From positions 471,001 through 535,000 of the forward strand of contig NZ_CP114035.2 of assembly GCF_026898135.2 (NCBI RefSeq): a stretch of DNA of 64,000 nucleotides. Direction: 5' to 3'. Source of the DNA: Pseudomonas fortuita (GTDB taxonomy: Bacteria; Pseudomonadota; Gammaproteobacteria; Pseudomonadales; Pseudomonadaceae). Position 1 is the stretch's first letter; each line of letters begins with the position of its first letter. Shown one piece after another: positions 1 to 5,521 of this stretch. The notes below the pieces were generated by a model. That model had not been told where the DNA came from. It made no database searches and saw only the letters and a list, made by a program, of their open reading frames with translations. The position numbers and the translations under genes are program-made.

Positions 1-1118
1 TGCAGGCACCACTCGTCGTTCTGCTCCAGCAGCATCGCGCCTACCAGACGCGTAATGGCCGGATCGTTGGGGAAAATCCCCACGACGTCGGTGCGGCGTT
101 TGATTTCAGCGTTGAGCCGCTCAAGCGGGTTGGTGCTGTGCAACTGCTGTCGATGAGCCTTGGGAAACGCCATGTGCGCCAGCACTTCATCCTCGCAACC
201 ATCCATGAGCGCCGCGATCTTGGGGTATTTTTCGCGTAGCTGATCTGCGACCAAACGCCATTGCTGATGGCATTCGGCACGGCTGTCCTGGGCGAAGACC
301 GTGCGCAGTAGAGCCGCCACCATGGTGCGCTGACCTTTGCCGACGTGGGCCATGGCATTACGCATGAAATGCACACGGCAGCGCTGCCAGGTCGCATTGA
401 AGACCTTGGATACAGCTGCTTTCAGGCCTTCGTGGGCGTCGGAGATGACCAGCTTCACGCCCCGCAAGCCACGTCGCATGAGGCTGCGCAGGAAGTCTGT
501 CCAGAACGGCTCAGCCTCTGACGGCCCAACCCGCATGCCCAGGACTTCGCGGCCACCGTCGGTGTTCACGGCCACGGCGATTATTACGGCGACCGAGACG
601 ATGCGTCCGGCCTCCCGCACTTTGACGTAGGTGGCATCGATCCAGAGATAGGGCCAGTCGCCCTCAAGCGGGCGGTCAAGGAAGGCGTGAACGCGCTCAT
701 CGATCTCACCGGCTAGCCGTGAGACCTGGCTTTTAGAGATACCGGTCATGCCCATGGCCTTGACCAGCTCGTCCACCGAACGCGTTGAAACGCCTTGGAT
801 GTAGGCCTCCTGGATGACTGCCGCCATGGCTTTCTCAGCGGTGCGTCGAGGTTCAAGGAAACCAGGGAAATAGCTGCCTTGGCGCAGCTTGGGAATCTTA
901 AGGTCGACGTCGCCTGCGCGGGTTTGCCAAAGACGATCGCGGTAGCCATTACGGCTATTTGTCCGGTCTGGGCTTTTGACATCGAAGCCCGCGCCGCACA
1001 GGCCTTCGACGTCGAACTCCATCATGCGCTGGGCAACGAACTGGATCATTTGCTTGAGCAGATCAGCGTCTGCCCCTTTCTCAACCAACTCGGTCAATGC
1101 GATAGTGGGCTTGGTCAT
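1..1118 (-). CDS. IS256-family (mutator-type) transposase, C-terminus outside window
   Basis: A DDE transposase that catalyses cut-and-paste or copy-out movement of its IS. 372 codons are open from the ATG at 1118 to the window edge; family members are about 400 residues, so little is missing. The likely catalytic acids are D161 in WIDATY, D227 in VISDAHEGL and E333 in NPLERLN, in the usual IS256 order and spacing. The short basic stretch after E333 (KRRTD) is also typical. No frameshift or stop interrupts the visible part, so the enzyme may be functional. The start codon lies inside one arm of an inverted repeat, which could limit translation of read-through transcripts. Confidence 0.92.
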
Positions 1119-1235: not shown

Positions 1236-1380
1236 GGACACGATCCGGCTTGGATCCTGTCCGATGGTCGCAAGCTTGCCGGCGCTGCGCGTCGTCCGCC
1301 CATAGTAGACAACACAGTCAACTTGGTTGTTGACGACCCACCTATGAACTTCAGAACGCATCATCGATTTAAGCTCAGTC
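1236..1380. other. island sequence without a recognisable gene
   Basis: This is the space between the probable IS end and the Toprim remnant. A short minus-strand frame of about 47 codons (start near 1363) ends with a stop inside the IS end. It has no recognisable motif or convincing ribosome binding site. I regard it as debris. Confidence 0.4.
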
Positions 1381-1617
1381 GTGGCGAACAAGGGTGATAA
1401 GGCCGCTCTCCGCAACGGTATGCGGTACGCTGGCAAGGGCTGGGAGCCCAAGGGCCAGGCCTACGAGAAAGACGACCAGGTATTCATCGTCGAAGGGATT
1501 TTCCACGCCATCGCGCTTTGGCTGGCAGGCTAAAAGTCGATCGCGACCATCAGCTGCATCAACTTCCTCTGGGAATTCATCGAGGCCAACAAGGGTAAAC
1601 TGGCTGCGCCAGACTGA
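1381..1617 (+). pseudogene. Toprim-domain protein remnant (island primase-like)
   Basis: Reading the frame that starts at 1381 gives a Toprim-like core: VFIVEG followed by a hydrophobic helix, then ATISC and EANKGK, as in the large Toprim proteins of Pseudomonas islands and prophages. The frame is broken by TAA at 1531-1533, continues with recognisable homologous sequence, and stops again with TGA at 1615-1617. The N-terminal primase part and the second acidic motif are absent. It is a dead fragment; identification rests on motif memory only. Confidence 0.6.
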
Positions 1618-1972
1618 CGGCAAGATCCAGTACAAGGCGATTGAGCGCGAGGTGGAGGCCCTGGAGAACCGCGAGCAGTACGAGGGCCACACCGCGACCT
1701 TGGATGACCATTCGACCGAGTCGGTGGGCGGGGTGAAGAAGATCGAGGCGTTGGAGGCACTCAAGCTGCTGACCGGTGGATCCGCGAGTATCGCGGCTAT
1801 TGATGACCTGCACCAGGCCACGGGCCGCGACTTGAACCTGGTAGTCGGGCAGAAGCTGAGCGCGACGATCGGCGGCGACCTGCAGGAGCGTATCGAGCGG
1901 CTGCGTGCGAGTGTGGTCGGTAAGAGTCAGCGCCTGCTGGCACCGAAAACCTGGCTGGGCTCGGAAGGGGTG
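1604..1972 (+). pseudogene. phage-like structural protein fragment
   Basis: Starting at the junction with the Toprim remnant (about 1604), a different frame stays open for roughly 120 codons. The protein sequence is soluble and charged, with an Ala/Leu-rich middle and a segment GGDLQERIERL followed by APKTWLGSEGV. I associate this with phage or tailocin structural proteins of Pseudomonas but cannot name the family with certainty. It has no start codon of its own, and after codon GTG at 1970 it runs into sequence belonging to another broken gene on the other strand. It is probably the 3'-truncated middle of a longer gene. Confidence 0.35.
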
Positions 1973-2118
1973 CCCGAAAGGGGATTTAACCTGACCACAT
2001 CAGCAAGGTGCCCAGGGCTGAAGTAGGCGCATGGCCAGGGTGGCATGACCAAGTACTCGCTGCAGCGTGAGGATGTCTCCACCATTGCGCATGTAGTGAC
2101 TAGCGAAGCCCACCAAAG
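1970..2118 (-). pseudogene. tyrosine recombinase C-terminal scrap, frameshifted
   Basis: The minus strand from about 2107 reads FASHYMRNGG, then LTLQRVLGH and ATLAM, the classic C-terminal catalytic patch of phage-type integrases (HxxR region lost, GH motif kept). A one-base frameshift near 2026 moves the rest, which continues as YFSPGHLADVVRLNP, typical of the residues following the catalytic tyrosine block. The N-terminal two thirds are missing. It is distinct from the intact integrase at 4227-5318, so it marks a second integration or deletion event in this element. Confidence 0.7.
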
Positions 2119-2339
2119 CGGCCTTGGTCAGCGTTGAGTTTTACGATCTGCGCTAAGTACTGGGAGTCTAGAGTGCTTGTAATCTCATAGCCGAGGCTCA
2201 GGCGCCGCAGGTACTAACCGACCGGCAGGCTCGCCTCGGATGCGTTTTCTTTAATGGTTAGCTCCTCACTCGGCAATACCGGCACACGTAAATGCTTTCC
2301 GTGTTTAAGTGTATCTCTCTCAGTTTCATTGCGGTTCAT
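2100..2339 (-). pseudogene. traJ: TraJ/MobC-like relaxosome protein, amber-interrupted and truncated
   Basis: ATG at 2339 is preceded by GAGAGG with 7-nt spacing. The product begins as a small basic protein with HLRVPVLPSEE, resembling the ribbon-helix-helix TraJ/MobC family that binds the oriT inverted repeat. TAG at 2214-2216 stops it after 41 residues. In the same frame the homology continues past the stop (YLRRLSLGYEI, then LNADQGRFGGL), matching the central and distal part of IncP TraJ. The frame then ends at 2100-2102, where integrase debris takes over. IncP TraJ is about 123 residues, so the last third is lost. It is non-functional unless the amber codon is suppressed. Confidence 0.7.
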
Positions 2340-2642
2340 GGTCTGACCTCTCTTTGGTGTTCACAGCGTCGCGGTAGCGACTGCCTCGCAGAGCAAGACA
2401 GCATTGAGCGCCGAAGGCGCGAATACGTGAGAGTGAAATTAGATAGCCGACTTGTCGGTTAGCTAACTTCACCTGTCTTGCCCTGAGTATTCGTGTTGCT
2501 GGCATGTCTGTCAGCAGTGATCTCGAGTAAACGATAGGGTTGCTATAGCGTTCAGTTATGAGCTGGTCGCTGAAACAACGGCAGTGATCGGATATTGAAC
2601 GCTAGGGCAACGATTGTTCGGTCAAGCAACGGTGCGGGATGT
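2340..2642. other. intergenic oriT-containing region
   Basis: About 300 bp without a gene between the TraJ-like remnant and the TraK-like gene. It contains the oriT structure and, nearer TraK, a further 16-bp inverted repeat with two mismatches (2539-2554 and 2596-2611). In IncP plasmids TraK coats a stretch next to the nick site; the second repeat may be part of such a region, which is inference. Confidence 0.5.
2393..2481 (+). other. oriT: putative IncP/MOBP-type origin of transfer (oriT)
   Basis: A 19-bp imperfect inverted repeat (2433-2451 and 2454-2472, three mismatches) ends in CTTCAC. It is followed after exactly 8 nt by a site resembling the RP4 nick region: TTCACCTGTCTTG then CCC, against RP4 TTCACCTATCCTG then CCC. 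The predicted nick lies between 2480 and 2481. A second nested pair GCAAGACAG (2393-2401) / CTGTCTTGC (2473-2481) encloses the structure, and a small hairpin GCGCC-GAA-GGCGC sits at 2408-2420. The flanking TraJ-like pseudogene and TraK-like gene support the call. Confidence 0.7.
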
Positions 2643-2885
2643 TTATTGATCACCGCAGTGCACGGGTAGCAACGTGTTGGCGTAGCGACGAAACGCTTGA
2701 TAGCCAAAGCTGATAGATCCCTCATCATGCAAAGTCGTCCATATCCTTAACAAAGACCAACCACCTTGAATCGCCTGTAGAATATCCTCACGTAGCAGGA
2801 TGAAATTAGCTAGGTTTGTAGCAGGGCTTGTGGGCGGATAGGTTGCAGCTACTCGCTCCGCGATCCGTACAGTAAGTGGCTTCAT
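2643..2885 (-). CDS. TraK-like oriT-binding protein
   Basis: An 80-residue protein. The second half (ILLREDIL, then GWSLLRIWTTLHDEG and FGYQAFRRY) follows the pattern of IncP TraK and related small proteins, in which the DNA-binding part ends with an aromatic-rich helix. TraK wraps DNA next to the nick site and helps relaxosome assembly. The ATG at 2885 has GAGG five nucleotides upstream. It lies 17 bp after the winged-helix gene on the same strand, so they are probably co-transcribed. No relaxase gene accompanies it here, so it could only work with one supplied in trans. Confidence 0.6.
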   Translation of the reverse strand: MKPLTVRIAERVAATYPPTSPATNLANFILLREDILQAIQGGWSLLRIWTTLHDEGSISFGYQAFRRYANTLLPVHCGDQ

Positions 2886-2902: not shown

Positions 2903-3796
2903 CTATGATTCAGAGCTAGGGTCTGGCCGCTCAATTGTCAAAACTTGAACTGGTGATAAGCCAGAGCTAGACTTGTTTATCTTTAACTTCTTTAAATATT
3001 CCTTTCCTACGGTAGACCGACTCTCATTCTTGACAGTTGAGGGGCTTTCTTTCGGACTTGCTGTCGGGGTTTTGGGGAGCGCGGTATCGGCACTCGCTGA
3101 CTCCCATGCAGATGATTGATCCTTGAAGTTGTAACTGCCATCTCGGTAGCGCTTGATCACTCCGTGGAACCACCTGATCGCTGTGGTTTTGATTGATCCT
3201 GCTTTGATGGCAGCTGACAGCTCGTTCAGCATCCGCTGCTGGTCAACGGGCGCAACCTGCGCAAGCGCCTTGAAAATCTGGCTCCTGGTTTCCGCGGAGA
3301 CCAATGCCGTCAACCGCAGCGGAGGATCCCCGACCGTCGGGGCTGGGGCGGGCGACGTAGTAGTATTTTCATTTTTTGGTTTTATTGTTTGTTTAGTATT
3401 TATATGTGCTCGTTTGTCCGGGTGCGGCTGCACCGTCTTCGGTTTATCCACGTTTGGGTTTTCGCAATATGGTGCAGAGTCGGCCTTTTCAGCCGGTTCG
3501 TCAGAGATATGCCACACCGTTTTTGCGAACCGACCTCGTGAGTCGTGGGTGCGCTCGATGCTCAAATAGCCTGCTGTCTCAAGCTCCTGCAGTCCGCTCC
3601 TGGTTGCGGCTGCGCCAGTACCATTTTTCTTGGATAGCGATTCCATTGTCAGATATGGATAGCCTGGGGGTAGGGACAGCAATTTCACCAATAGTCCTAA
3701 CGATTTCCAACTCAGGTTTTGGTCACTTATTACATCGTTAGGGATAATTGTGAAATGACTGGACACCTTCCTTTTTACAATTAGGGATATAGACAT
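2903..3796 (-). CDS. winged-helix island replication/regulatory protein
   Basis: A 297-residue protein of unknown exact role. Residues about 10-95 look like the winged-helix N-terminal domain seen in plasmid and island replication proteins (KSLGLLVKLLSLP, then TRSGLQELETAGYLSIER). A long Pro/Thr/Ser-rich linker follows (about 100-160), then a helical second domain (about 165-215) and a charged, disordered tail. Together with the AlpA-like gene 5 bp upstream and the TraK-like gene downstream it forms a small island operon. GC content is visibly lower than in the core genome. It could be a replication initiator accessory or a transcriptional regulator. Confidence 0.55.
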   Translation of the reverse strand: MSISLIVKRKVSSHFTIIPNDVISDQNLSWKSLGLLVKLLSLPPGYPYLTMESLSKKNGTGAAATRSGLQELETAGYLSIERTHDSRGRFAKTVWHISDEPAEKADSAPYCENPNVDKPKTVQPHPDKRAHINTKQTIKPKNENTTTSPAPAPTVGDPPLRLTALVSAETRSQIFKALAQVAPVDQQRMLNELSAAIKAGSIKTTAIRWFHGVIKRYRDGSYNFKDQSSAWESASADTALPKTPTASPKESPSTVKNESRSTVGKEYLKKLKINKSSSGLSPVQVLTIERPDPSSES

Positions 3797-3801
3797 CTTC
3801 G

Positions 3802-4020
3802 TCAGCCCTGCTCGAGAACCTTGGCTACATCTGCGGTTCTAAAGTAAATCCTTCTGCCAATTCTGACCTTGCAAGGAAGAAATTTTCTCGATACTTCATT
3901 GTCGCCACTCAGGCTGATTCTCAGGCCGTCCTTGCTTCTATGTAGTACCTCTGCAAGCTGCTCAAGGGACAAAAGTGGAGCCCCAGAGAATAAGTCACGT
4001 ATGTATTCTTCCGTGGTCAT
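3802..4020 (-). CDS. AlpA/excisionase-like small DNA-binding protein
   Basis: A 72-residue protein with an N-terminal helix-turn-helix-like segment (SLEQLAEVLHRS) and a C-terminal basic strand-helix (IGRRIYFRTADVAKVL) typical of small MerR/AlpA-like excisionases and island regulators. The start ATG at 4020 has a strong ribosome binding site GGAGG with 8-nt spacing. The gene heads a minus-strand operon continuing into the winged-helix and TraK-like genes. Four copies of a TTTAGCTAAAC-type repeat lie just upstream, toward the integrase gene, and are candidate binding sites. Function is inferred from size, fold pattern and position. Confidence 0.6.
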   Translation of the reverse strand: MTTEEYIRDLFSGAPLLSLEQLAEVLHRSKDGLRISLSGDNEVSRKFLPCKVRIGRRIYFRTADVAKVLEQG

Positions 4021-4111: not shown

Positions 4112-4255
4112 GTTTAGCTATAGTGCTCCGTGGTTATTTAGTTAAACTTCTTCCAGAGTTGTGATTTTTTAGCGGCTAAAATTCAGTTTCCGCTTGAGAG
4201 TCACGACTAAATAACTAGGACTTTAGCTAAACTGCCTTTGGAGGTTTAGCTAAAC
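4112..4255. repeat. cluster of TTTAGYTAAAC palindromic repeats
   Basis: Copies at 4112-4120 (partial, GTTTAGCTA), 4137-4147 (TTTAGTTAAAC), 4222-4232 (TTTAGCTAAAC) and 4244-4255 (GTTTAGCTAAAC, a perfect palindrome). The last two overlap the 3' end of the integrase gene; the integrase stop codon is inside one of them. They may be operators or arm-type sites for the AlpA-like protein or the integrase. Confidence 0.55.
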
Positions 4256-5318
4256 TTTTCTTTCTTTTTGACATGCTATCTAGCCGGGCAACTAAATCCT
4301 CTGAGCGTAAGTGCGTATATCTCTTCAACATTTGCATTGATTTATGGCCGCTGATGCTCGATACCTCTTGGTCGGAGAGACCGCCCTCCACAAGGCGGCT
4401 TACCGCCTCATGTCTCAAGTCGTGAAATCTGAAGTCGGATAGCTGTAGCTTCTTGACCAGTAGTCCCCAGATTTTTGTGAACGCGTAGGGGCGACGTTTC
4501 CCGTCCTTCCCAGGTTCACCAAAAAACACCAGGTTGCAGTCGCTAGGGCGAGCGGGGTTTATCATCGCGGCTTTGAAAAGCGTAGTCGCTCGCTTGCTCA
4601 GTGGAACAGTTCGTTGACCATCATTTTTCGTGTCAACGAGTCTTACGATGCGTCGCTCTGTATCCACCTGAGGTCTGCGTAGCGACGCGATTTCACCTGA
4701 GCGCATACCAGTTTCCAGAGCGATGCCAACGATCCACCCAAGCATTGGATTGCTATGCCGATTCACCTCTGCGAACAGCCGACGTTCCTCATCCGGCGAG
4801 AGCCTACGATTGCGACCCTCTCCGGGGCTTGGCTTGCGTATATTCAACACGGGGTTAAACGTCAGGCCCAGCCCCCATTCCTGGATCGCGACCGTGAAAA
4901 CGTGGCTCAGTAGAGCCAGCTCCAGGCGAACGGTGTTGTTGCTGGTCGTGCCTGCGCGGCCCGGCTCGTTAAGGCGCTTGTCGCGATAGTTGGCAATGGT
5001 GTCAGCGGAAAGGGCTGCGAGAGAATACTTGCCCAGATGCTCCGTTAGCTTTTTAGCCTTGGAGATCTCACCGCGTTGAGTCGTAGGCTTCTTTGTAGGT
5101 GTAATGTCGGTCAGGTAGCGCTTGAGCGCTATTTCCAGCGTCATGCGCTCTGAGCCGCTGCGCTGGATGTACACACCGCGCACCATCTCGTCTTCGGTGC
5201 GTCGTGACCAATCCTCGGCGTCGCGTTTGGTGCGGAAGGTTTTGGCGTTGGTCGGCCATCCGGTCTTGCGGATGACGGCCTTCCAGGTGCCGGCAGGGGT
5301 TTTGACGATTGTAGCCAT
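4227..5318 (-). CDS. tyrosine-type site-specific integrase
   Basis: Catalyses integration and excision of the island at the adjacent tRNA gene. 363 residues: an N-terminal arm-binding domain (1-60), a SAM-like core-binding domain (about 60-150) and a catalytic domain with R206 (GMRSGEI), K231, H299 and R302 (FHDLRHEA), H325 (SGHKS) and nucleophile Y334 (KRYTHL), so all active-site residues are present. The start at 5318 was chosen over an upstream in-frame codon because GGAG lies 8 nt before it and family members begin with MATI-like sequence. The gene reads away from the tRNA 3' end, the usual arrangement. It appears intact although its element is decayed. Confidence 0.92.
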   Translation of the reverse strand: MATIVKTPAGTWKAVIRKTGWPTNAKTFRTKRDAEDWSRRTEDEMVRGVYIQRSGSERMTLEIALKRYLTDITPTKKPTTQRGEISKAKKLTEHLGKYSLAALSADTIANYRDKRLNEPGRAGTTSNNTVRLELALLSHVFTVAIQEWGLGLTFNPVLNIRKPSPGEGRNRRLSPDEERRLFAEVNRHSNPMLGWIVGIALETGMRSGEIASLRRPQVDTERRIVRLVDTKNDGQRTVPLSKRATTLFKAAMINPARPSDCNLVFFGEPGKDGKRRPYAFTKIWGLLVKKLQLSDFRFHDLRHEAVSRLVEGGLSDQEVSSISGHKSMQMLKRYTHLRSEDLVARLDSMSKRKKSLAKPPKAV

Positions 5319-5444: not shown

Positions 5445-5465
5445 TGGTGGGCCCACACGGACTCG
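5445..5465. other. probable attachment site (att) in the tRNA 3' end
   Basis: The integrase gene lies directly beyond the 3' end of the tRNA gene, and tyrosine integrases of this kind commonly use the tRNA 3' end as core site. I searched the island side of the window for a repeat of this sequence and found none, so the other end is outside the window or lost. Confidence 0.45.
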
Positions 5466-5521
5466 AACCGTGGACCAAAGGATTATGAGTCCTCTGCTCT
5501 AACCAACTGAGCTATAGGCCC
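5445..5521 (-). tRNA. tRNA with CAU anticodon (Ile2 or elongator Met)
   Basis: A 77-nt cloverleaf with encoded CCA: acceptor stem GGGCCTA / TGGGCCC, D-loop AGCTCAGTTGGTTAGAGC, anticodon loop CTCATAA with anticodon CAT, and T-arm GGTTCGAGTCC. The CAU anticodon fits either tRNA-Ile2, whose C34 is modified to lysidine to read AUA, or elongator Met. The general look, with G1-C72, resembles E. coli ileX, but sequence alone does not settle it. Its 3' end faces the integrase and is the likely attachment site of the island. Confidence 0.95.

Follow-up and report, generated by a model that had tools for sequence, protein, structure and literature searches.

An IncP/MOBP-type oriT in a relaxase-less tRNA-Met island of Pseudomonas fortuita that probably hitchhikes on conjugative plasmids

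Introduction

What does an origin of transfer (oriT) do in a chromosomal island that has no relaxase to act on it? Such a locus lies in the 64,000-nucleotide stretch of Pseudomonas fortuita DNA that was analysed here as a whole (hereafter, the window). The original prediction, made from the letters of the sequence, had placed an IncP/MOBP-like oriT in a decayed island without any relaxase, between a TraK-like gene and a TraJ-like pseudogene, and had likened it closely to the oriT of RP4.

Elements of this kind are known, since relaxase-less islands, the oriT of GIsul2 and the iOriT class have already been published. Islands lacking a relaxase are covered in the available text of PMC5704250, together with GIsul2, which has TrbJ/TrbK/TrbL, and an IncP island that encodes its own relaxase; relaxase-less oriT-bearing elements were named iOriT in PMC11389934 (available in part). 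GIsul2 (Tn6591) has an integrase and replication genes but no relaxase, is proposed to use IncP plasmids and has guaA as its target (excerpts of PMC5704250); its backbone includes int and oriT (excerpts of PMC8239412).

Results

The site is an oriT of the IncP/MOBP type

The following features were located at the site.

2385..2485, + strand: IncP/MOBP-type oriT core (blastn to plasmid oriTs, RF01760, 31 invariant columns in 23 sequences)
2382-2483, strand opposite to the oriT core: match to Rfam traJ-II (RF01760), 93.5 bits with a gathering score of 40
2433..2472, no strand: 19-bp inverted repeat, arms 2433-2451 and 2454-2472 (covariation)
2480..2481, + strand: predicted nick TCTTG/CCC (alignment with plasmid oriTs; exact position by RP4 analogy)
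2389-2401 and 2473-2485, no strand: arms of an outer inverted repeat, 13 nt, 92% complementary (weaker covariation)

A blastn search with 2385-2500 against 72,556 plasmid records matched 258 of them (239 at ≥80% query coverage), and 238 of the 258 are typed conjugative. The best match, to a MOBP plasmid of Yersinia massiliensis (E 1e-24, 86.3%), sits between traJ and traK, beside traI. When the 101-nt site was aligned with eight oriTs, each from a plasmid or contig that bears TraI, the scores (47.0-73.3) stood 11.7-18.5 s.d. above those of 500 dinucleotide shuffles, the top shuffle reaching 20.6. The alignment with known MOBP-class oriTs proposed as a check is thus well above background and, together with the Rfam match and the covarying repeat, bears out the assignment: by its sequence, the site is a real oriT of the IncP/MOBP type.

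The details of the predicted architecture were recovered as well. The two inverted repeats are nested, and the right inner arm, which stops at 2472, is separated by 8 nt from the predicted nick at 2480/2481; the exact cleavage position is one that we take over from RP4 by analogy. The ~19-bp inverted repeat, the 8-nt gap and a nick region of the form TCYTG/CC, which characterise the class, are therefore all present. The nick region recurs as a mirror image in the left arm of the outer repeat, and the core also includes a small GCGCC hairpin. By analogy with RP4 (PMC6206304, available in part), the right arm would be the TraJ-type site; the same source states that this arm sets TraJ specificity, and its figure legends already show two nested repeats in the RP4 oriT.

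Elsewhere in the genome, two one-mismatch matches to the nick motif were rejected as further oriT copies, being chance matches within a duplicated coding gene. By eye, this gene looks like one for glucose-6-phosphate isomerase.

We then aligned 23 oriTs from islands, plasmids and four Caballeronia loci, and found 31 invariant columns, including most of the nick region. In the inner structure of 24 pairs, 93.4% of the cells pair, both sides change in 12/24 pairs (shuffled mean 5.7) and none of 500 shuffles reaches the observed covariation score, with the proviso that related sequences can beat shuffles even without structure. As the structure was drawn from the window's own sequence, a slide control favours it by construction. 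The outer repeat is less distinctive: 69.4% of the cells pair, and its both-side changes in 3/13 pairs were matched by 204 of the 500 shuffles.

Two side observations concern the repeats. The mirror of the nick region lies ~80 nt upstream of it, and across the 23 oriTs its core covaries with the nick region at two positions. Between the oriT and the TraK-like gene, 2500-2640 holds several direct and inverted repeats (for example 2539-2554/2596-2611) that could be putative binding sites of the TraK-like protein.

As the RF01760 match lies on the traJ strand, covaries strongly and belongs to a family that a table in PMC2864571 (available in part) rates as certainly RNA and cis-regulatory, the conserved structure could instead be an mRNA leader that regulates traJ. 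We consider this very unlikely. The structure is kept, at 96.9, 94.7 and 109.7 bits, in G285 and G081 (related islands described below) and in L066 (an element carried by an E. coli plasmid), none of which showed a traJ next to it, and our covariance model R1 also recovers it without traJ in G270, although some of these cases could reflect a traJ lost only recently. Moreover, traJ-II of RK2/RP4 corresponds to the RP4 oriT according to the text available from PMC6206304. A leader as the sole function is therefore disfavoured, since the structure persists where no traJ was found; the leader and oriT roles could coexist.

The oriT lies in a tRNA-Met island with no recognised relaxase

The oriT is flanked by a TraK-like gene and a traJ pseudogene, as had been predicted.

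2106..2339, - strand: traJ pseudogene (NikA/TraJ-like), one in-frame stop, 3' end lost
2643..2885, - strand: short TraK-like gene, 80 aa, DUF5338 (PF17273, E 2.3e-13)

In tblastn, the pseudogene is 55% identical to plasmid TraJ over residues 10-78 of 118. The TraK-like protein has 44.7% identity to TraK of the Yersinia plasmid; its gene points towards the oriT, whereas traK points away from it in the seven TraI-bearing plasmids whose annotation was inspected.

These genes belong to an island of 9.65 kb inserted in tRNA-Met, with direct repeats at both ends; ~4.1 kb of it precedes the window start.

5445..5490, - strand: att core, 3' part of tRNA-Met, 45/46 bases identical to the second copy
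G000:C1:466898-466943, outside the window: second att copy, 92% over 76 with the extended repeat
4227..5318, - strand: tyrosine integrase (PF00589, E 2e-29), ORF open from 5354; the same family lies by tRNA-Met in relatives
3802..4020, - strand: AlpA/Xis-like small helix-turn-helix protein (HTH_17, E 2e-5, just under the curated cut-off)
2903..3796, - strand: replication-type protein, role inferred from weak HTH_36 and weak STY4528-family matches, both below cut-off
1375..2100, no strand: debris between the insertion sequence and traJ, with a weak DUF2345-like phage fragment (E 0.0019, below cut-off)
3..1118, - strand: Mutator-family (IS256-type) transposase (PF00872, E 3e-125), running off the window start

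Inward from the tRNA, the order is integrase, AlpA-like gene, replication-type gene, TraK-like gene, oriT, traJ remnant and debris, followed by the transposase, a 190-aa ORF, lmuA and lmuB. The AlpA/Xis-like protein is a candidate excisionase. The cargo is a Lamassu locus of lmuA and lmuB, in which lmuB consists of two in-frame pieces split by one stop (L013:15987-17786). As side observations, a 92% relative occurs in another oriT-bearing locus (G302), and primase-like and integrase-like fragments can be made out by eye in the debris.

The predicted lack of a relaxase held: no PF03432 (MOBP) match was found in the 6.31-Mb single-contig genome, a search confined to that class, and none of the 10 of 13 island ORFs scanned against Pfam encodes a relaxase, the other three being ≤77 aa. 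The island likewise showed neither a coupling protein nor a mating pore. It thus shows an integrase with bounding att repeats and an oriT without a PF03432 relaxase, as in relaxase-less integrative mobilizable elements of the iOriT/MGI type. The description of the island as decayed was right in part: traJ and lmuB are broken and an insertion sequence has entered, but int, alpA-like, rep and traK are open. A query of the joined flanks, representing the empty site, matched 38/38 genomes through its tRNA part; the flank past the repeat aligned too briefly because the 76-bp repeat includes the following terminator.

Related tRNA-Met islands share the relaxase-less layout

Blastn of the oriT over 398 Pseudomonas genomes gave matches in 15, the window's included. 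In six others (G117, G285, G081, G343, G353 and G255), the oriT occurs with the same integrase family at tRNA-Met. Five of the six islands are closed by a 46-bp repeat and measure 5.6-19.6 kb; that of G117 runs off its contig. The order int-alpA-rep-traK-oriT without a TraI match is shared by G117, G285, G081, G343 and G353, and TraK is present in all six. G353 and G255 have an intact TraJ; that of G343 is frame-shifted, that of G117 is truncated, and none was found in G285 or G081, so that just two of the seven tRNA-Met islands have an intact traJ. The integrase match has an internal stop in G117 and G081. The genes trbJ and trbL are found in G343 and G255, and G353 has a relic of trbL.

None of the six relatives gave a TraI-like match (G117 being read to its contig end) and none has PF03432 beside the oriT, the only matches, in the genomes of G285 and G255, lying on another contig or >1 Mb away. 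As this state is common to the six, the missing relaxase is probably not a product of decay, and it looks to be the norm of the tRNA-Met island family, as in GIsul2. We also noticed that G343 contains two different IncP-type oriT loci, on contigs C12 and C1 (L047, L135), both with TraJ, TrbJ and TrbL and no TraI found.

All five bounded islands whose cargo was inspected (the window's and the four below) contain matches to defence families.

G285: ScaI-type restriction enzyme and methyltransferase
G081: methyl-directed restriction enzyme
G343: PD-Lambda-5-type or type II methyltransferase and AAA ATPase
G353: Hachiman-type HamB and HamA (a weak PADLOC match that exceeds the Pfam cut-off)

The oriT core is probably under constraint and the islands have moved between species

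We compared the window island with five of its relatives (percent identity for the 99-nt oriT core, the DNA between traK and oriT, the traJ-side DNA of up to 45 nt, and int, in that order).

G117: 99.0, 85.1, 95.6, 96.9
G285: 99.0, 85.1, 88.9, 96.9
G081: 87.9, 73.8, 74.4, 93.4
G343: 91.9, 66.2, 71.1, 79.1
G353: 89.9, 62.6, 86.4, 77.0

The core is kept better than the traK-side DNA in all five comparisons, while the traJ side differs less clearly from it. It is also more identical than the integrase in four of the five, falling below it in G081. Since a noncoding oriT is in most pairs at least as well conserved as the integrase and the DNA next to it diverges, the core is, judging from these alignments, probably under selective constraint.

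Island and host genes are discordant. G285 differs from the window's genome at rpoD (88.6%) and dnaG (79.9%, part of the gene), yet int is 96.9% and alpA 98.6% identical; G081, a nearer host (rpoD 94.7%), has a more distant island (int 93.4%, rep 80.7%). The islands have therefore moved between species. Such movement alone is not proof of conjugation, as an island of 10 kb spread by transduction would leave the same picture.

These comparisons also bear on whether the island is only the dead remnant of an IncP-like conjugative plasmid or ICE, immobile and stripped of relaxase and pore by decay. The traJ pseudogene, the split lmuB, the insertion sequence and the phage debris fit such an end, as do the lost or broken traJ of G117, G285, G081 and G343 and the integrase stops of G117 and G081. 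A remnant would hardly account for the open int, alpA-like, rep and traK genes, a relaxase-less layout common to the relatives, an intact traJ in the relaxase-less G353 and G255, an oriT core better kept than the traK-side DNA in every comparison, and the island/host discordance. We therefore regard it as unlikely.

Some sister islands with the same integrase family have components of a different conjugation system

The integrase family was found in 43 of the 398 genomes (E ≤ 1e-60), and an IncP-type oriT in the same island in just seven, among them all six genomes, the window's included, with integrase identity ≥89%. We thus rejected a general link between the oriT and this integrase family. 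In ten sister islands (integrase identity 79-85%), R1 found no oriT (best E 0.12). By tblastn, six of the ten (L181-L184, L187 and L188) contain an EexN-type lipoprotein, VirB6 and a MobC/NikA-like protein, with VirB5 in two of these (L187, L188); none of these proteins was found in L185, L186, L189 and L190. The proteins tested against libraries scored above cut-off for VirB6 (3/3, TrbL/VirB6), VirB5 (2/2) and the lipoprotein (1/1, EexN). All four small proteins match MobC and NikA-like models, one being above, one at and two below the MobC cut-off. No relaxase was seen among the sister-island ORFs tested, the islands having been read in part.

The 36 of 43 genomes with a related integrase and no oriT in that island, and the small size of the island, would suit a passenger oriT on an element that moves otherwise, by phage packaging or chromosome capture. 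This reading is quite unlikely in our view: the oriT is selectively conserved, relatives have TraK, TraJ, TrbJ or TrbL beside it, six of the ten sister islands have components of a different conjugation system in its place, and no phage packaging gene was recognised in the window island in a non-systematic look.

A tentative reading, which we hold at somewhat under an even chance, is that the islands with this tRNA-Met integrase are plasmid satellites with defence genes that exchange a whole helper-adaptation cassette, comprising a relaxosome accessory protein, oriT, pore parts and an exclusion lipoprotein. Its versions might be an IncP one (TraJ/TraK, oriT, TrbJ, lipoprotein, TrbL) and one with the EexN-type, VirB6 and MobC/NikA-like proteins. 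The genes of the sister islands support such swapping, though they do not prove it. If it occurs, a swap would change the helper plasmid while leaving the integration site the same.

In Pseudomonas, oriT loci without a recognised TraI outnumber those with one

The covariance model R1, built from the 23 oriTs, was run at E ≤ 1e-4 against the 398 Pseudomonas genomes, one per species. It matched 38 genomes at 41 distinct loci (three same-place second-strand matches were dropped), 12 of which either went into R1 or equal one of its rows and so match by construction. To score markers, we used profiles made from the genes of named plasmids and of islands, covering ~10 kb on each side for most loci, with longer scored stretches in five merged cases and shorter ones at contig ends, which limits the relaxase check at several loci.

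TraI was present at four of the 41 loci (G054, G134, G284 and G344). At 30 loci, at least one of TraJ, TraK, TrbJ and TrbL was found and no TraI in the flank; 23 of these have both TrbJ and TrbL. The remaining seven (G154, G106:C72, G292:C183, G116, G388, G266 and G058; R1 ≤41.7 bits) have none of the Tra/Trb markers and were left out of the island count; three of the 30 counted loci (G010, G249, G226) score as low as these. For the 30 loci (29 genomes), the 20 kb on either side of the oriT on its contig are free of PF03432 matches, and 17 of the 29 genomes have none at the thresholds used. In all eight loci inspected, a small ORF stands between trbJ and trbL; it is lipoprotein-like by eye, and the one checked against NCBIfam gave no match. 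In 369 genomes of the window's class, seven match R1, the window's included; of the eight other loci in this sample, three have TraI, and that of G720 ends at the contig end just past traJ.

Ten of the 30 relaxase-less Pseudomonas loci (L110, L115, L116, L122, L127, L129, L130, L132, L134 and G270) also contain the guaA 3' end, which Pfam identified in one of them, and all ten have TrbJ and TrbL. L139, from another family, grouped with them. Eight cargo proteins, chosen by eye from three guaA-type loci, were compared with a defence library, and all three loci gave matches.

Cargo of the guaA-type loci: SIR2-HerA; Lamassu and a type IIG enzyme; Gabija

The expected helper is probably nearer to pAcX50c than to RP4

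We compared candidate helpers over 27 nt, the right arm plus the predicted nick (2456-2482). The Azotobacter plasmid pAcX50c (typed conjugative, MOBP) is identical at 27/27 positions, the IncP-1gamma plasmid QKH54 and the Yersinia plasmid at 26/27, and the IncP plasmid pJP4 at 23/27, the RP4 sequence itself lying outside the comparison. A Cycloclasticus plasmid and the four Caballeronia loci, whose arm we take to resemble that of RP4, agree at 20-21/27. The match therefore disfavours RP4 as the expected helper. Of the RP4 parallel originally drawn, the IncP/MOBP type stands; on these sequences, RP4 is probably not the nearest model for the window's oriT. According to parts of PMC6206304, the RP4 machinery failed to mobilize plasmids whose nick resembles that of RP4 but whose arm differs.

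QKH54, pAcX50c and the 57-kb Y. massiliensis plasmid are like the window in the sequence of the oriT and its place beside traJ. Unlike the window island, they have TraI, TraG and other transfer genes of their own, and their traK has the opposite orientation, pointing away from the oriT.

As a side observation, pAcX50b (13.9 kb, from the same Azotobacter strain and typed non-mobilizable) also matches at 27/27; by appearance, it forms a natural hitchhiker/helper pair with pAcX50c (the two plasmids being L043 and L070).

Discussion

The site is, as we read the sequence evidence, probably the transfer origin of a relaxase-less integrative mobilizable island in tRNA-Met, a hitchhiker of the iOriT/MGI type. 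We infer mobilization from the discordance of island and host genes together with the oriT match. Points against this are the decay in the window copy and its relatives, and the presence of the oriT in just seven of the 43 genomes with the integrase.

The best reading is that the window island is the tRNA-Met counterpart of GIsul2. Both have an integrase, a replication gene and an oriT, and no relaxase. GIsul2 differs in lying in guaA and in its RepA, RepC and sul2 cargo; the window island lies in tRNA-Met with another rep, TraK and a traJ remnant and defence cargo, and neither guaA integration nor trbJ, trbK and trbL were found in it. Another oriT relative is L066 on the E. coli plasmid pHUSEC411like (81% over 80 bp, 24/27 over arm and nick). 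It has TrbJ-TrbK-TrbL, with no TraJ or TraI in the stretch inspected, and we take it as GIsul2-like by gene order, its record not bearing that name.

The IncP island of Brucella suis and Burkholderia glumae (PMC5704250, in part) resembles the window family in being integrated and in its IncP-type TraJ, TraK, TrbJ and TrbL; it differs in lying in guaA and in having its own MobP relaxase, a class for which the window's genome gave no PF03432 match. SGI1 is helper-dependent and brings pore subunits, its TraG disabling the helper's entry exclusion (PMC5704250, available text), and it has its own mobilization module, MpsA/MpsB (PMC9299015, available in part). Helper-dependence, as proposed here, is alike in the two, and TrbJ and TrbL are brought along by many of the window island's relatives. 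The helpers of SGI1 are of the IncA/C group and its mobilization module is MpsA/MpsB, and the window copy is without pore genes. Among the matches listed in a literature search that did not extend to subscription papers or preprints, and so gives weak evidence of absence, there was no tRNA-Met Pseudomonas island with an IncP oriT. As far as our searches show, the novelty lies in the tRNA-Met lineage with its IncP-type oriT, which is selectively kept, in the defence genes it carries and in an apparent swapping of helper cassettes.

Transfer could proceed as follows. When a conjugative plasmid of the IncP-like MOBP group enters the cell, the island would excise, and the plasmid's TraI, with its TraJ, would nick at 2480/2481; as traJ is broken in the window copy, TraJ must come from the helper. 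A single strand, headed by the TraK-like gene, rep and int, would then exit by way of the plasmid's T4SS and reintegrate at the tRNA-Met of the recipient. TrbJ and TrbL, with the small lipoprotein-like ORF between them, would perhaps remodel the helper pore and evade entry exclusion as SGI1 does; the window copy has either lost these genes or never had them.

Many genomic islands look immobile, having no relaxase. A short noncoding oriT ties the present ones to an IncP-1gamma-like MOBP helper group, which makes their spread testable. In the Pseudomonas sample, oriT loci where no TraI was found outnumber TraI-bearing ones by 30 to 4, a count in which draft genomes may under-represent plasmids. 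The layout suggests a rule for hitchhikers: carry an exclusion lipoprotein of one's own and the adjoining pore parts. Our results suggest that relaxase-less oriT islands ride visiting plasmids and bring anti-phage genes along and, as the cargo seen is anti-phage defence, broad-host-range plasmids may in this way distribute immunity between species.
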